Positions 32,679 through 36,262 of a DNA stretch of 64,000 nt are shown in pieces (the stretch's first letter is position 1; each line of letters begins with the position of its first letter). The notes beneath the pieces are model-generated. The model ran no database searches. It worked only from the letters and a program-made list of their open reading frames with translations, and was not told the origin of the DNA. Made by a program: the position numbers and the translations under genes. The stretch is from the NCBI RefSeq assembly GCF_003391055.1, contig NZ_QUAJ01000016.1, forward strand, positions 1 through 64,000. Direction: 5' to 3'. The stretch is from Psychrilyobacter piezotolerans (lineage in GTDB: Bacteria; Fusobacteriota; Fusobacteriia; Fusobacteriales; Fusobacteriaceae).

Positions 32679-32708
32679 TTGACCTTCTCCTCCTAATATT
32701 GATATAAT
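32679..32708 (+). promoter_or_regulatory. Promoter of the ftsE operon
   Basis: TTGACC (32679-32684), 18 bases, TATAAT (32703-32708), about 75 bases ahead of ftsE. Confidence 0.7.
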
Positions 32709-32783
32709 TTAAGGATAAATGGGCAGTGATTTTCCATCTATAGACTTTCAGTAATCAACTCTTGTTTCATAGGAGAATTTAAA

Positions 32784-33434
32784 ATGTTAAAATTTAAGAA
32801 TATAACCACTTACGAAAAGAAACCATGTCTCAATAATTTAAATTTAAATGTTTCAAATGGAAGATTTGTCCTTTTAAATTATAGATCTAAGCTGGAAAAA
32901 AACAAGATGATCGACTTGATCTGTCAATTGGATACTCCTAAATCCGGGAAGATAACAATAGGAGGTAAAAACCTTGCTAAGTTCAATTGCCGTTCAAAAA
33001 TAATCCACAAAAGAATAGGTATTTGTTTTGAAGATTTTAAACTTATACAAACTAAGGATGTTCTGGCAAATATCACCCTTCCCTTGGAGATCCATACAAA
33101 ATTGTCTCCTGAGAAACTCATTGCAGCAGGTGAGGAACATTTAAAAAATTTCGGCCTTTTAGAGAAAAAAAATAATTCTTTAACTACTCTGAATTTAGAG
33201 GAAAAACAAAGACTTAACATCGCCAGATCTGTGGTGTTAGATCCAGAATTGATCATCCTGGATAACCCGCAAATGCATTTAAAGACCGAAAAAATTGAGA
33301 GTTTGATGAAATACCTCCAAGATCTTAATAACAAAGGTAAAACTATCGTAATCTTTACCAACAATAAAAAAATTGAAAATATGATAAATTGTGACAAATA
33401 TATCTTAGAGAAGGGAGCAATATCCAATGTTTAA
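32784..33434 (+). CDS. ftsE: FtsE-like ABC protein with degenerate ATPase motifs
   Basis: A 216-residue protein with FtsE length, fold pattern and context, since ftsX follows with an 8-base overlap. In known FtsEX, FtsE hydrolyses ATP to switch periplasmic wall hydrolases on. Here the nucleotide motifs have decayed. The P-loop GxSGxGKST is replaced by YRSKLEKNK (33-41; only Lys39 remains). The Q-loop is CFEDF instead of FQD, and the signature LSGGEQQR reads LNLEEKQR. Walker B ends LDNP instead of DEP. The H-loop THD reads TNN. The frame is intact with a good AGGAG site, so it looks like a maintained pseudo-ATPase rather than a pseudogene. Confidence 0.85.
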   Translation: MLKFKNITTYEKKPCLNNLNLNVSNGRFVLLNYRSKLEKNKMIDLICQLDTPKSGKITIGGKNLAKFNCRSKIIHKRIGICFEDFKLIQTKDVLANITLPLEIHTKLSPEKLIAAGEEHLKNFGLLEKKNNSLTTLNLEEKQRLNIARSVVLDPELIILDNPQMHLKTEKIESLMKYLQDLNNKGKTIVIFTNNKKIENMINCDKYILEKGAISNV

Positions 33435-34278
33435 AAAAATACGTCAAATGAATACCGAGATAAATGAATTGATCCAAAAAAATATAACCTATTACACCCT
33501 CAGCTTCACTACTTTGATCTGTGCATTTTTATTTTTCAATATAAGCCTTATCTCCATCTATAATATCCATCAGAGTAATAAAACTTTAAATAAAAGTTAT
33601 GCTCTCAGTGTGTATATGAATAACAACGTCTCTCAAAACAGTATTGAGAAGATTGAAAAAAGTATTTTGAACCTCCAGGGTATTGAAAAAATCAGCTATA
33701 TAAATAAAGAATTAGCGTTTCAAAATTTAGCTGCCCAACTGGGACTCAGTAATCGCGGGATAAATAATCCCCTCTTAAACTCCTTTATAGTAAAAACTGA
33801 AGGAGAAAAAAACCTAAATGAAGCAAAAGTGATTATCGATGAGATCGATGGTGTAAAAGAAGTCGTAATCAATAAAAAAAGGGTCGCTGCACTGGATGAA
33901 AAAATAAAAAGAAATAATAAGCTTATAATCGGATTACTTATCATCACACTTCTGCCTATAAAAATAATGATATTTAATATAATGCATAGCAGTGTCGTCA
34001 GCCAAAATCATGATATAGAAGCTAAACTATATCTCGGCATGGAAAAAAAAGAGATCTTAAGGCCCTATTATTTTATAAATAATATAAAATTTATCTCGGC
34101 AGCTGTTATAGGCAGTTTAATTTTTTTAAACCTCTATGAATTTATCCGCACTGAAATAGCAGGATTAAATTACCTGGCCTCTACCATCCAGGCTGGAATC
34201 GTTGTGGGAATCATCATTATCCTTGTGAGCTTAAGTTTTCCATTTCTATCCTTTAACCTGATAAAGGTTAAGAGGTAG
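33427..34278 (+). CDS. ftsX: Cell division protein FtsX
   Basis: A 283-residue permease-like protein with four membrane helices (about residues 22-45, 165-185, 215-235, 245-275). A periplasmic domain lies between the first two (about 46-163). This is the FtsX layout, in which the extracellular domain binds EnvC or other hydrolase regulators. It overlaps ftsE by 8 bases and ends 4 bases before the EnvC-like gene, so the three are probably made together. Confidence 0.9.
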   Translation: MFKKIRQMNTEINELIQKNITYYTLSFTTLICAFLFFNISLISIYNIHQSNKTLNKSYALSVYMNNNVSQNSIEKIEKSILNLQGIEKISYINKELAFQNLAAQLGLSNRGINNPLLNSFIVKTEGEKNLNEAKVIIDEIDGVKEVVINKKRVAALDEKIKRNNKLIIGLLIITLLPIKIMIFNIMHSSVVSQNHDIEAKLYLGMEKKEILRPYYFINNIKFISAAVIGSLIFLNLYEFIRTEIAGLNYLASTIQAGIVVGIIIILVSLSFPFLSFNLIKVKR

Positions 34279-34282
34279 GTCA

Positions 34283-35401
34283 ATGAAGAAACTAATATTT
34301 TGCCTGATCACAATAATTATTACCACAACCACATTTTCCAACAGCTTAGATGAAAAAAAAAATCAGATCAATCAGATTGAAAATGAGATCAAAAGAAAGG
34401 GTGAAGAGATAAAAAAAAACACTCAAAAGATCAAAACCATAGATAAAAAAACCGAAACACTGAAAGAACAGATAACCCGTGTAGAAAAAGAATTAAAAAT
34501 TATTGAAAGCGAGAAAGAACTCCTCAAGGCAAAAATTGATGTGGTCAGCAGGAAGGTCGATTATGGGAAACGGAATCTGAAATTCAGTTCCAAAGAACTC
34601 GCTAATATGGAAAATGATTATGTGGCTATGCTCCAGTCATGGCAGAAAAAAGAGATAACCGATGAAGTCGACACCTATAATTTTAAGGAAATCCTCAAGG
34701 CCAATCAGGAGAGGCAGGAGGAGATAAAAAGTGTCCAGCACAATATAAAAAAAGTCAAAGAAGATATCGAGAATGAGCAGCGAAATCTTAAAAAACTTCA
34801 ATCCCAGCTGGCTTATAAAGAACGTCAGCAGGAGAGCAAGAAAAGACAGCACAACAATCTAATAGCACAATATAATAAAGATAAGAAGCTAACAACAGCC
34901 AAAACAAAACAAGCTGAAAATACAATAACTAACCTTCAAAAACAAAAAGCTGCCATTGAAAAAGAGATCGATAATATAATCAGAACCAGAACCAAACAAC
35001 TGGGAAATGTAAATTATTCAACTGTTGCTAAATATTTAGGAAGTTTTAAAAGCCCCATCTCTGGAAGGGTCGTAGTTGGATTTAATGAAGCCAAGGTAGG
35101 AGGAATCCGTAGTTCCGGGCAGGAGATCCAGGGAAATCTAGGAGACCGGGTTGTTTCTGCAAATAAAGGGAAGGTTATCTATGCAGGTAAATTTATGAAT
35201 ATGGGAAAAGTTGTCATGATAGATCATGGATATAACCTGATCACTATTTACGGAAACCTGATTTCTAACTATGTAAAGTTAGGACAAACGGTAGGAAAAG
35301 GCAGTGAAATCGGGATTTTAGGACTTAACTTAGACGGGAGATCATATCTTTATTACGAGACCAGGTTTAACCTGAAATCCTCTAATCCAGATAATTTTTA
35401 G
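34283..35401 (+). CDS. envC: EnvC-like murein hydrolase activator with degenerate LytM domain
   Basis: A 372-residue exported protein. Residues 1-19 form a signal peptide. About 20-235 is a long Lys/Glu/Gln-rich coiled coil, and 245-372 is a LytM/M23 fold. The zinc ligands of active M23 enzymes are missing: the HxxxD region reads RSSGQEIQG, the HLxF/HxH region reads SYLYYETRF, and YAHL is IYGNL. E. coli EnvC shows the same loss (LYGYN, SLYFE) and acts as an activator of amidases rather than an enzyme. Together with ftsX this is the divisome wall-splitting module. Confidence 0.9.
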   Translation: MKKLIFCLITIIITTTTFSNSLDEKKNQINQIENEIKRKGEEIKKNTQKIKTIDKKTETLKEQITRVEKELKIIESEKELLKAKIDVVSRKVDYGKRNLKFSSKELANMENDYVAMLQSWQKKEITDEVDTYNFKEILKANQERQEEIKSVQHNIKKVKEDIENEQRNLKKLQSQLAYKERQQESKKRQHNNLIAQYNKDKKLTTAKTKQAENTITNLQKQKAAIEKEIDNIIRTRTKQLGNVNYSTVAKYLGSFKSPISGRVVVGFNEAKVGGIRSSGQEIQGNLGDRVVSANKGKVIYAGKFMNMGKVVMIDHGYNLITIYGNLISNYVKLGQTVGKGSEIGILGLNLDGRSYLYYETRFNLKSSNPDNF

Positions 35402-35467: not shown

Positions 35468-36262
35468 ATGAAAAAAAAGGTATGTATCATATATAATACC
35501 TCTAAAAAAGATGCAATAAAATTTTATGAAGTATCCAAGGAATTCTTTGAAAATTGCGGTATAGAGGTCCAGCCAGAGATAGAAGGATCAGCCTTTGTTG
35601 TGGTAATTGGTGGTGACGGAACCCTCCTAAAGGCCAGCAAGGAAATAGCTGCCCACAATAAATTTGCCGTTGCTGTAAATATGGGAAGTCTTGGATTTCT
35701 TACAGATATAAGGAGGATCGAAGCTCTTCAAGTTTTTGAAGATGTTTTGATGGGAAACTATAAGTTAGAGGAAAGGCATATGCTGGAGGTAGAGGTCGGC
35801 GGAAAAACATATACCGGACTCAATGAGGTGGTTATGGCAAAGGGAGGTATCCTGCAAAAGTTAATCAGGATCAGAGCTTCAGGGGAACACTATATCAATA
35901 CCTACAGGGCAGATGGATTAATTGTTGCTACTCCCACAGGGTCAACAGGCTATTCCCTTTCAGCAGGAGGACCCATCATCAGACCGAATTTAGATGTTCT
36001 TTTAATTACTCCCATTGCCCCGCACAACTTAAGTACCAGACCTATAATAGTAGATGGCAAAGAGGAGATCACATTAAAATTAGAGGAAAGAGAAGGTTCA
36101 GCTTATGTAGCTGTGGATGGAGATGATATTATCGAGATTACTAAAGATGACACCGTTAAAATAAAATATTCAGATAAAAAATTAAAGTTGGTGCTGCCAA
36201 AATCAAGAAACTATTATTCTGTTTTAAGGGAAAAATTAAAGTGGGGAGATAAGATATGTTAA
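35468..36262 (+). CDS. nadK: NAD kinase
   Basis: A 264-residue enzyme that phosphorylates NAD to NADP. The GGDG motif is at 48-51 (VVVIGGDGTLLKASKE), followed by NMGSLGFLTD and the TPTGSTGYSLSAGGP substrate loop. GGGGAGAAAG precedes the ATG. It overlaps recN by 7 bases, a nadK-recN pairing seen in many bacteria. Confidence 0.96.
   Translation: MKKKVCIIYNTSKKDAIKFYEVSKEFFENCGIEVQPEIEGSAFVVVIGGDGTLLKASKEIAAHNKFAVAVNMGSLGFLTDIRRIEALQVFEDVLMGNYKLEERHMLEVEVGGKTYTGLNEVVMAKGGILQKLIRIRASGEHYINTYRADGLIVATPTGSTGYSLSAGGPIIRPNLDVLLITPIAPHNLSTRPIIVDGKEEITLKLEEREGSAYVAVDGDDIIEITKDDTVKIKYSDKKLKLVLPKSRNYYSVLREKLKWGDKIC

Follow-up and report, generated by a model that had tools for sequence, protein, structure and literature searches.

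We analyzed a 64,000-nucleotide stretch of the Psychrilyobacter piezotolerans genome (contig NZ_QUAJ01000016.1, positions 1 to 64,000; hereafter the window), focusing on an FtsE-like gene at positions 32784..33434. FtsEX is the textbook case of a system in which cytoplasmic ATP hydrolysis turns on extracellular wall hydrolases. The window gene encodes, from an ATG start, a 216-amino-acid FtsE-derived protein with an ATP-binding cassette (ABC) nucleotide-binding domain but without the ATPase motifs (pseudo-FtsE). We consider it likely that this protein is an FtsE orthologue, by descent and by position, that has turned into a pseudo-ATPase and most likely serves as a scaffold bound to FtsX, with FtsX-EnvC activating the amidase without an ATP cycle. 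From its residues, we infer that pseudo-FtsE does not hydrolyze ATP and probably does not bind it. Coordinates are window positions on the forward strand.

ATPase motifs and selection in the pseudo-FtsE

The best curated family for pseudo-FtsE is NCBIfam FtsE (TIGR02673; E-value 3e-38), with a score of 131.6 bits that lies under the curated cut-off of 264.85. Motif replacements were read from an alignment with Escherichia coli FtsE. The Walker A motif GHSGAGKST (canonical GxSGxGKST) is YRSKLEKNK (32880..32906), in which Lys39 is kept and the preceding glycine is replaced by Glu38. The Q-loop FQD is FED, its glutamine now being Glu83 (33030..33032), and the signature LSGGEQQR is LNLEEKQR (33189..33212). 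The Walker B motif and D-loop, LLADEPTGNLD in E. coli, read IILDNPQMHLK (ELIILDNPQMHLK, 33246..33284), with Asp160 kept and Asn161 in place of the catalytic glutamate. ATHD is FTNN, so that the switch (H-loop) histidine is now Asn193 (33360..33362). The alignment thus confirms the replacements listed by an earlier reading of the window made without database searches (the sequence-only reading): P-loop glycines and Ser/Thr, Q-loop glutamine, signature, Walker B glutamate and H-loop histidine. Its wording that every ATPase motif was lost is slightly too strong. The catalytic residues are gone, but Lys39, Asp160 and part of the signature helix (EKQR..IAR) remain.

The catalytic glutamate, Q-loop glutamine, switch histidine, and signature and P-loop glycines are absent from all seven genus members, and also from three further genera, barring small single-position exceptions. 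Among the 12 pseudo-FtsE proteins of the Fusobacteriaceae, Glu-Lys replaces Gly-Lys at the former P-loop in every case; Lys39 is invariant and Asp160 nearly so. The A-loop aromatic residue is not conserved. The AlphaFold2 model of pseudo-FtsE (mean predicted local distance difference test score 92.2) has the FtsE fold, and its best match in the PDB is FtsE of the FtsEX-EnvC complex 8hd0 (template modeling score 0.94, 25% identity). The model of Psychrilyobacter FtsX was of low confidence (67.8) and too weak for use.

Pseudo-FtsE occurs in all seven Psychrilyobacter genomes with ftsX, and the six other proteins are 88-91%, 78% and 52% identical to that of the window. We computed the ratio of nonsynonymous to synonymous substitution rates (dN/dS), as the sequence-only reading had proposed. 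Pairwise values within the genus range from 0.065 to 0.156, and the pooled value for pseudo-ftsE is 0.110 (95% confidence interval 0.073-0.149), compared with 0.091 (0.065-0.123) for ftsX. The gene is under purifying selection. The codons of the former ATP site taken alone have a dN/dS of 0.102; therefore, the non-canonical residues found there today are themselves conserved. Within the genus, neither the former motif sites nor the coupling groove differed in rate from the remaining protein (Fisher p 0.83 and 0.82). In the Psychrilyobacter pseudo-FtsE that diverges most, 16 residues downstream of the former P-loop (residues 56-71 of the window protein) are deleted, and the frame is intact. A sequencing error or chance frame was ruled out by the identical replacements in seven genomes of the genus, and a pseudogene by the dN/dS of 0.11. 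This value, the conservation across the genus and the matching state of three other genera all favor the earlier suggestion of altered function over recent decay.

No protein exceeded the TIGR02673 cut-off in this genome or in any of 98 Fusobacteriota genomes. The genome does encode many intact FtsE-like ATPases, the best of which scores 211.8 bits. The top match of the phylum, an intact FtsE from a deep-branching family (G037), reaches 249 bits and is still below the cut-off, so the threshold is strict for Fusobacteriota. FtsX_ECD proteins are present in a single copy in this genome, which is 99.8% complete. With none over the cut-off and only this one FtsX_ECD protein, we rejected a second FtsE elsewhere in the genome. 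The sequence-only reading had named a second canonical ftsE together with relaxed selection on this copy as an outcome that would count against its view, and we found neither relaxed selection nor a second copy over the cut-off.

Distribution in the phylum and the FtsX coupling helix

We searched the 98 Fusobacteriota genomes for FtsX and read the DNA upstream of ftsX. Seventy-nine genomes have FtsX; ftsE is adjacent in 18 of these, and none is adjacent in the remaining 61. In two deep families (G037 and G038), FtsE is intact but for one signature glycine (LSIGE/LSKGE). Fully degenerate FtsE with an intact frame was found in 12 genomes from four Fusobacteriaceae genera (g1, g5, g10 and g14), two g14 members retaining Asp-Glu at Walker B. 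This alignment across the phylum, another check proposed beforehand, extends the degenerate state to three genera besides Psychrilyobacter, and restriction to that genus was rejected. A half-degenerate FtsE is encoded in four genomes from one Leptotrichiaceae-type genus (g21). It keeps GKST, the glutamine and Asp-Glu but has a shortened P-loop and has lost the signature and switch histidine; it looks like an earlier stage of this decay, or one reached separately. Some contigs without ftsE start shortly upstream of ftsX; all genera concerned have a member with >1 kb of upstream sequence except g3, for which only 390 and 538 nucleotides were examined. Between the intact deep-branching pair, identity is 50% for FtsE versus 33% for FtsX. 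Between genera with pseudo-FtsE it is 26-41% for FtsE versus 30-57% for FtsX, and FtsE is not the better conserved of the two.

Several Leptotrichiaceae-type genomes (G039, G041-G043, G045-G051, G053, G059 (g17), G040 (g18) and G088 (g26)) have no FtsX extracellular domain. Seven of them, tested with a family-specific FtsX profile, gave fragments at most, and the whole FtsEX system appears to have been lost in g17, g18 and g26. A contig scan retrieved mostly ordinary ABC ATPases from outside Fusobacteriota, which served as alignment rows for folding; its patterns were derived from pseudo-FtsE, and hence it carries no evidence on conservation. Among the titles and abstracts listed by literature searches on FtsE/FtsX and ABC degeneracy, none described a pseudo-FtsE.

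A tree of FtsX, EnvC and NadK and a second one built without FtsX both place the pseudo-FtsE genera as a grade leading to an FtsE-less crown of Fusobacteriaceae. Forcing these genera into one clade was disfavored (approximately unbiased test, p 0.038). The gene was lost once in the crown (support 100/98), with separate losses in g3 and g7. Most simply read, this topology means that the crown derives from ancestors whose FtsE was already ATPase-dead, and that degenerate FtsE would be ancestral to the FtsE-less state. The Glu-Lys common to all 12 proteins is in line with a single origin; the series rests on few independent events. The altered state, which the sequence-only reading had raised for this lineage, is not peculiar to one lineage but is a grade ancestral to complete loss of FtsE.

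FtsX inserts into FtsE by a coupling helix, the cytosolic loop between its transmembrane segments 2 and 3 (PMC11627006). We located this FtsE-docking element in the window (FNIMHSSVVSQNHDIEAKLYLGMEKKEILRPYYFIN, 33973..34080) by aligning FtsX with the E. coli protein and 79 fusobacterial sequences, taking the helix position from that study. The loop is kept in the four pseudo-FtsE genera (DI..K.Y.G......KPY). In eight genera of the FtsE-less crown it has a 3-residue deletion and the motif is lost, and in g3 and g7 its glycine is lost. Per-genus similarity of the loop to canonical FtsX is higher where pseudo-FtsE is present (Mann-Whitney p 0.004, uncorrected for shared ancestry), while the extracellular domain gives similar mean scores (0.89 and 0.77). 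This co-retention is the best evidence that pseudo-FtsE probably still binds FtsX. Three genera without an adjacent ftsE (g19, g20 and g25) have a canonical-looking loop (RKREI...EG), and may still rely on an ATPase whose gene lies at another locus.

Across the phylum, FtsE ranges from intact through ATPase-dead yet conserved to missing beside ftsX, and FtsX and EnvC persist throughout this series. The series suggests that the ATP cycle is dispensable, and that catalysis was lost first, the protein second and the FtsX docking helix last.

Gene neighborhood

Pseudo-ftsE heads an operon-like run, and the gene upstream is on the opposite strand. The best promoter match of the region (11/12) is a sigma-70-type TTGACC-N18-TATAAT with TG ahead of the -10 element (32679..32708); both hexamers are identical in the aligned Psychrilyobacter members with sequence covering the site. 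An AGGAG ribosome-binding site (32771..32775) is kept in all seven genus members. The downstream ftsX (33427..34278; Pfam FtsX_ECD, PF18075, E-value 1e-13, with an NCBIfam FtsX match) starts 8 nucleotides before the end of pseudo-ftsE, an overlap kept across the genus. The features that the sequence-only reading had listed as kept, namely length, frame, ribosome-binding site, overlap with ftsX and place beside FtsX and EnvC, are all borne out.

Next is envC (34283..35401), encoding a coiled coil and a LytM domain without zinc ligands (Peptidase_M23 E-value 2e-18). The protein aligned to EnvC-type and DipM chains, and among solved structures the EnvC-type protein of 8tzk/8tzl is its best relative. 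At what we take to be the zinc-ligand positions of active M23 peptidases, the sequence has S, E, N and Y-L-Y. Judging from these residues, the window EnvC is an amidase activator and not a peptidase; one Amidase_3 protein is encoded in the genome. The next open reading frame in the run is nadK (NAD kinase; 35468..36262), which also lies downstream of envC in Fusobacteriaceae relatives. The same ftsX-envC-nadK order was reported for Fusobacterium nucleatum (PMC5915739).

Competing explanations and known systems

The sequence-only reading had offered two possibilities, an ATP-free FtsEX or an FtsE turned scaffold. Both draw support from selection on the gene, the lack of a second FtsE over the family cut-off, the kept coupling helix, and FtsE-less relatives in which FtsX-EnvC works. 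In the mechanism that we propose, pseudo-FtsE would bind the FtsX coupling helix from the cytoplasm as a nucleotide-free scaffold that stabilizes the FtsX dimer and/or links FtsX to the division ring, and FtsX-EnvC would switch on the cell-wall amidase without a cycle of ATP binding and hydrolysis. ATP control of FtsX-EnvC would have been abandoned before FtsE itself disappeared, and the docking helix would have gone together with FtsE or later. In a doubtful extension of this idea, the invariant Glu38-Lys39 mimics a bound phosphate and fixes FtsE-FtsX in one state, so that control of the hydrolase passes wholly to EnvC or the amidase. An ABC-type signal transmitter would then have been made into a nucleotide-free structural part.

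Several points weigh against the scaffold reading. Given the strict family cut-off, the lack of matches above it is alone no proof against a working FtsE. The retained P-loop lysine and Walker B aspartate may allow weak or unusual nucleotide binding. Within Fusobacteriaceae, the co-retention behind the presumed contact of pseudo-FtsE with FtsX comes down to about two independent losses, and FtsE-less Leptotrichiaceae-type genera retain a coupling-like loop, so the correlation between loop and FtsE is not phylum-wide. ATPase-dead FtsEX blocks septal synthesis in E. coli, yet rescues ftsEX defects where it is unable to block (PMC7343993); the block implies that ATP-free operation needs other changes.

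Another intact ABC ATPase could dock on FtsX and supply the ATP cycle, leaving pseudo-FtsE as an accessory or as one half of an asymmetric heterodimer. The many intact FtsE-like ATPases of the genome, the best at 211.8 bits, would provide candidates, and heterodimeric ABC proteins with one degenerate site, such as TM287/288 and CFTR, are well known (PMC7756269). Such a role has been suggested for HMPREF0397_1681 of F. nucleatum, where an ABC ATP-binding protein was pulled down with FtsX and the authors proposed a substitute of this type (PMC5915739). We regard this explanation as unlikely, since the FtsX docking helix is itself shortened and lost in the FtsE-less Fusobacteriaceae crown, no candidate reaches the FtsE cut-off, and there is no second FtsX_ECD protein in the genome. 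The phylum series also bears on what replaces FtsE in Fusobacterium, and argues that no replacement is needed: if ATP control was given up before FtsE was lost, a substitute ATPase would be unnecessary.

That pseudo-FtsE binds nucleotide weakly through Lys39 and Asp160, as a nucleotide sensor or a slow ATPase with non-canonical chemistry, fits the near-complete conservation of these two residues but is quite improbable given the loss of all P-loop glycines and Ser/Thr, the glutamate in place of glycine beside the lysine, the unconserved A-loop aromatic, and the loss of the Q-loop, signature and switch histidine. It is harder still to credit a decaying gene on its way out, retained merely for translational coupling to ftsX. 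Such decay would agree with the loss of the gene in sister lineages, the 16-residue deletion in one genus member, and the faster divergence of pseudo-FtsE relative to FtsX than of intact FtsE. Against it stand the dN/dS of 0.11 across the whole protein, former motif codons included, and the intact frame in 12 genomes from four genera spanning a deep grade.

In model systems, FtsX is moved by the binding of ATP to FtsE and in turn compresses the coiled coil of EnvC, freeing the LytM domain to open an amidase (PMC11627006). Pseudo-FtsE resembles the FtsE of the FtsEX systems of E. coli, S. pneumoniae, P. aeruginosa and M. tuberculosis in the gene order ftsE-ftsX-hydrolase activator, in length and in its ABC nucleotide-binding-domain fold. 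The neighborhood of its Q-loop and coupling groove is also like that of canonical FtsE, whereas the catalytic motifs are replaced and the score falls under the family cut-off. In the degenerate sites of TM287/288 and CFTR, an ABC nucleotide-binding domain has likewise lost catalytic residues, but there the partner keeps one working site, whereas the pseudo-ftsE locus encodes no intact partner.

The predicted ATPase-dead state recalls the E. coli D162N and K41A mutants, in which FtsE is still able to assemble or localize (PMC7343993, PMC10269673). FtsE K41A and D162A still reach mid-cell (PMC10269673), and ATP-independent roles of FtsE are therefore possible. Among the differences, the E. coli D162N complex blocks septal synthesis, and the N-terminal extension of ~50 residues by which E. 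coli FtsX is reported to contact FtsA (PMC11627006) is, by alignment, missing from fusobacterial FtsX. Pseudo-FtsE proteins are natural separation-of-function proteins for probing roles of FtsE beyond ATP hydrolysis.

Another close comparison is with FtsX-EnvC of F. nucleatum, which belongs to the same phylum, shares the ftsX-envC-nadK run and has no working FtsE at the locus. There, cells lacking ftsX or envC form chains in which the septa are complete (PMC5915739), and thus FtsX-EnvC works without a neighboring FtsE. Whereas the gene is absent in F. nucleatum, Psychrilyobacter has a conserved pseudo-ATPase and the FtsX coupling helix. The pseudo-FtsE of this marine genus looks like an evolutionary halfway stage toward a Fusobacterium-like switch that operates without an adjacent FtsE gene.
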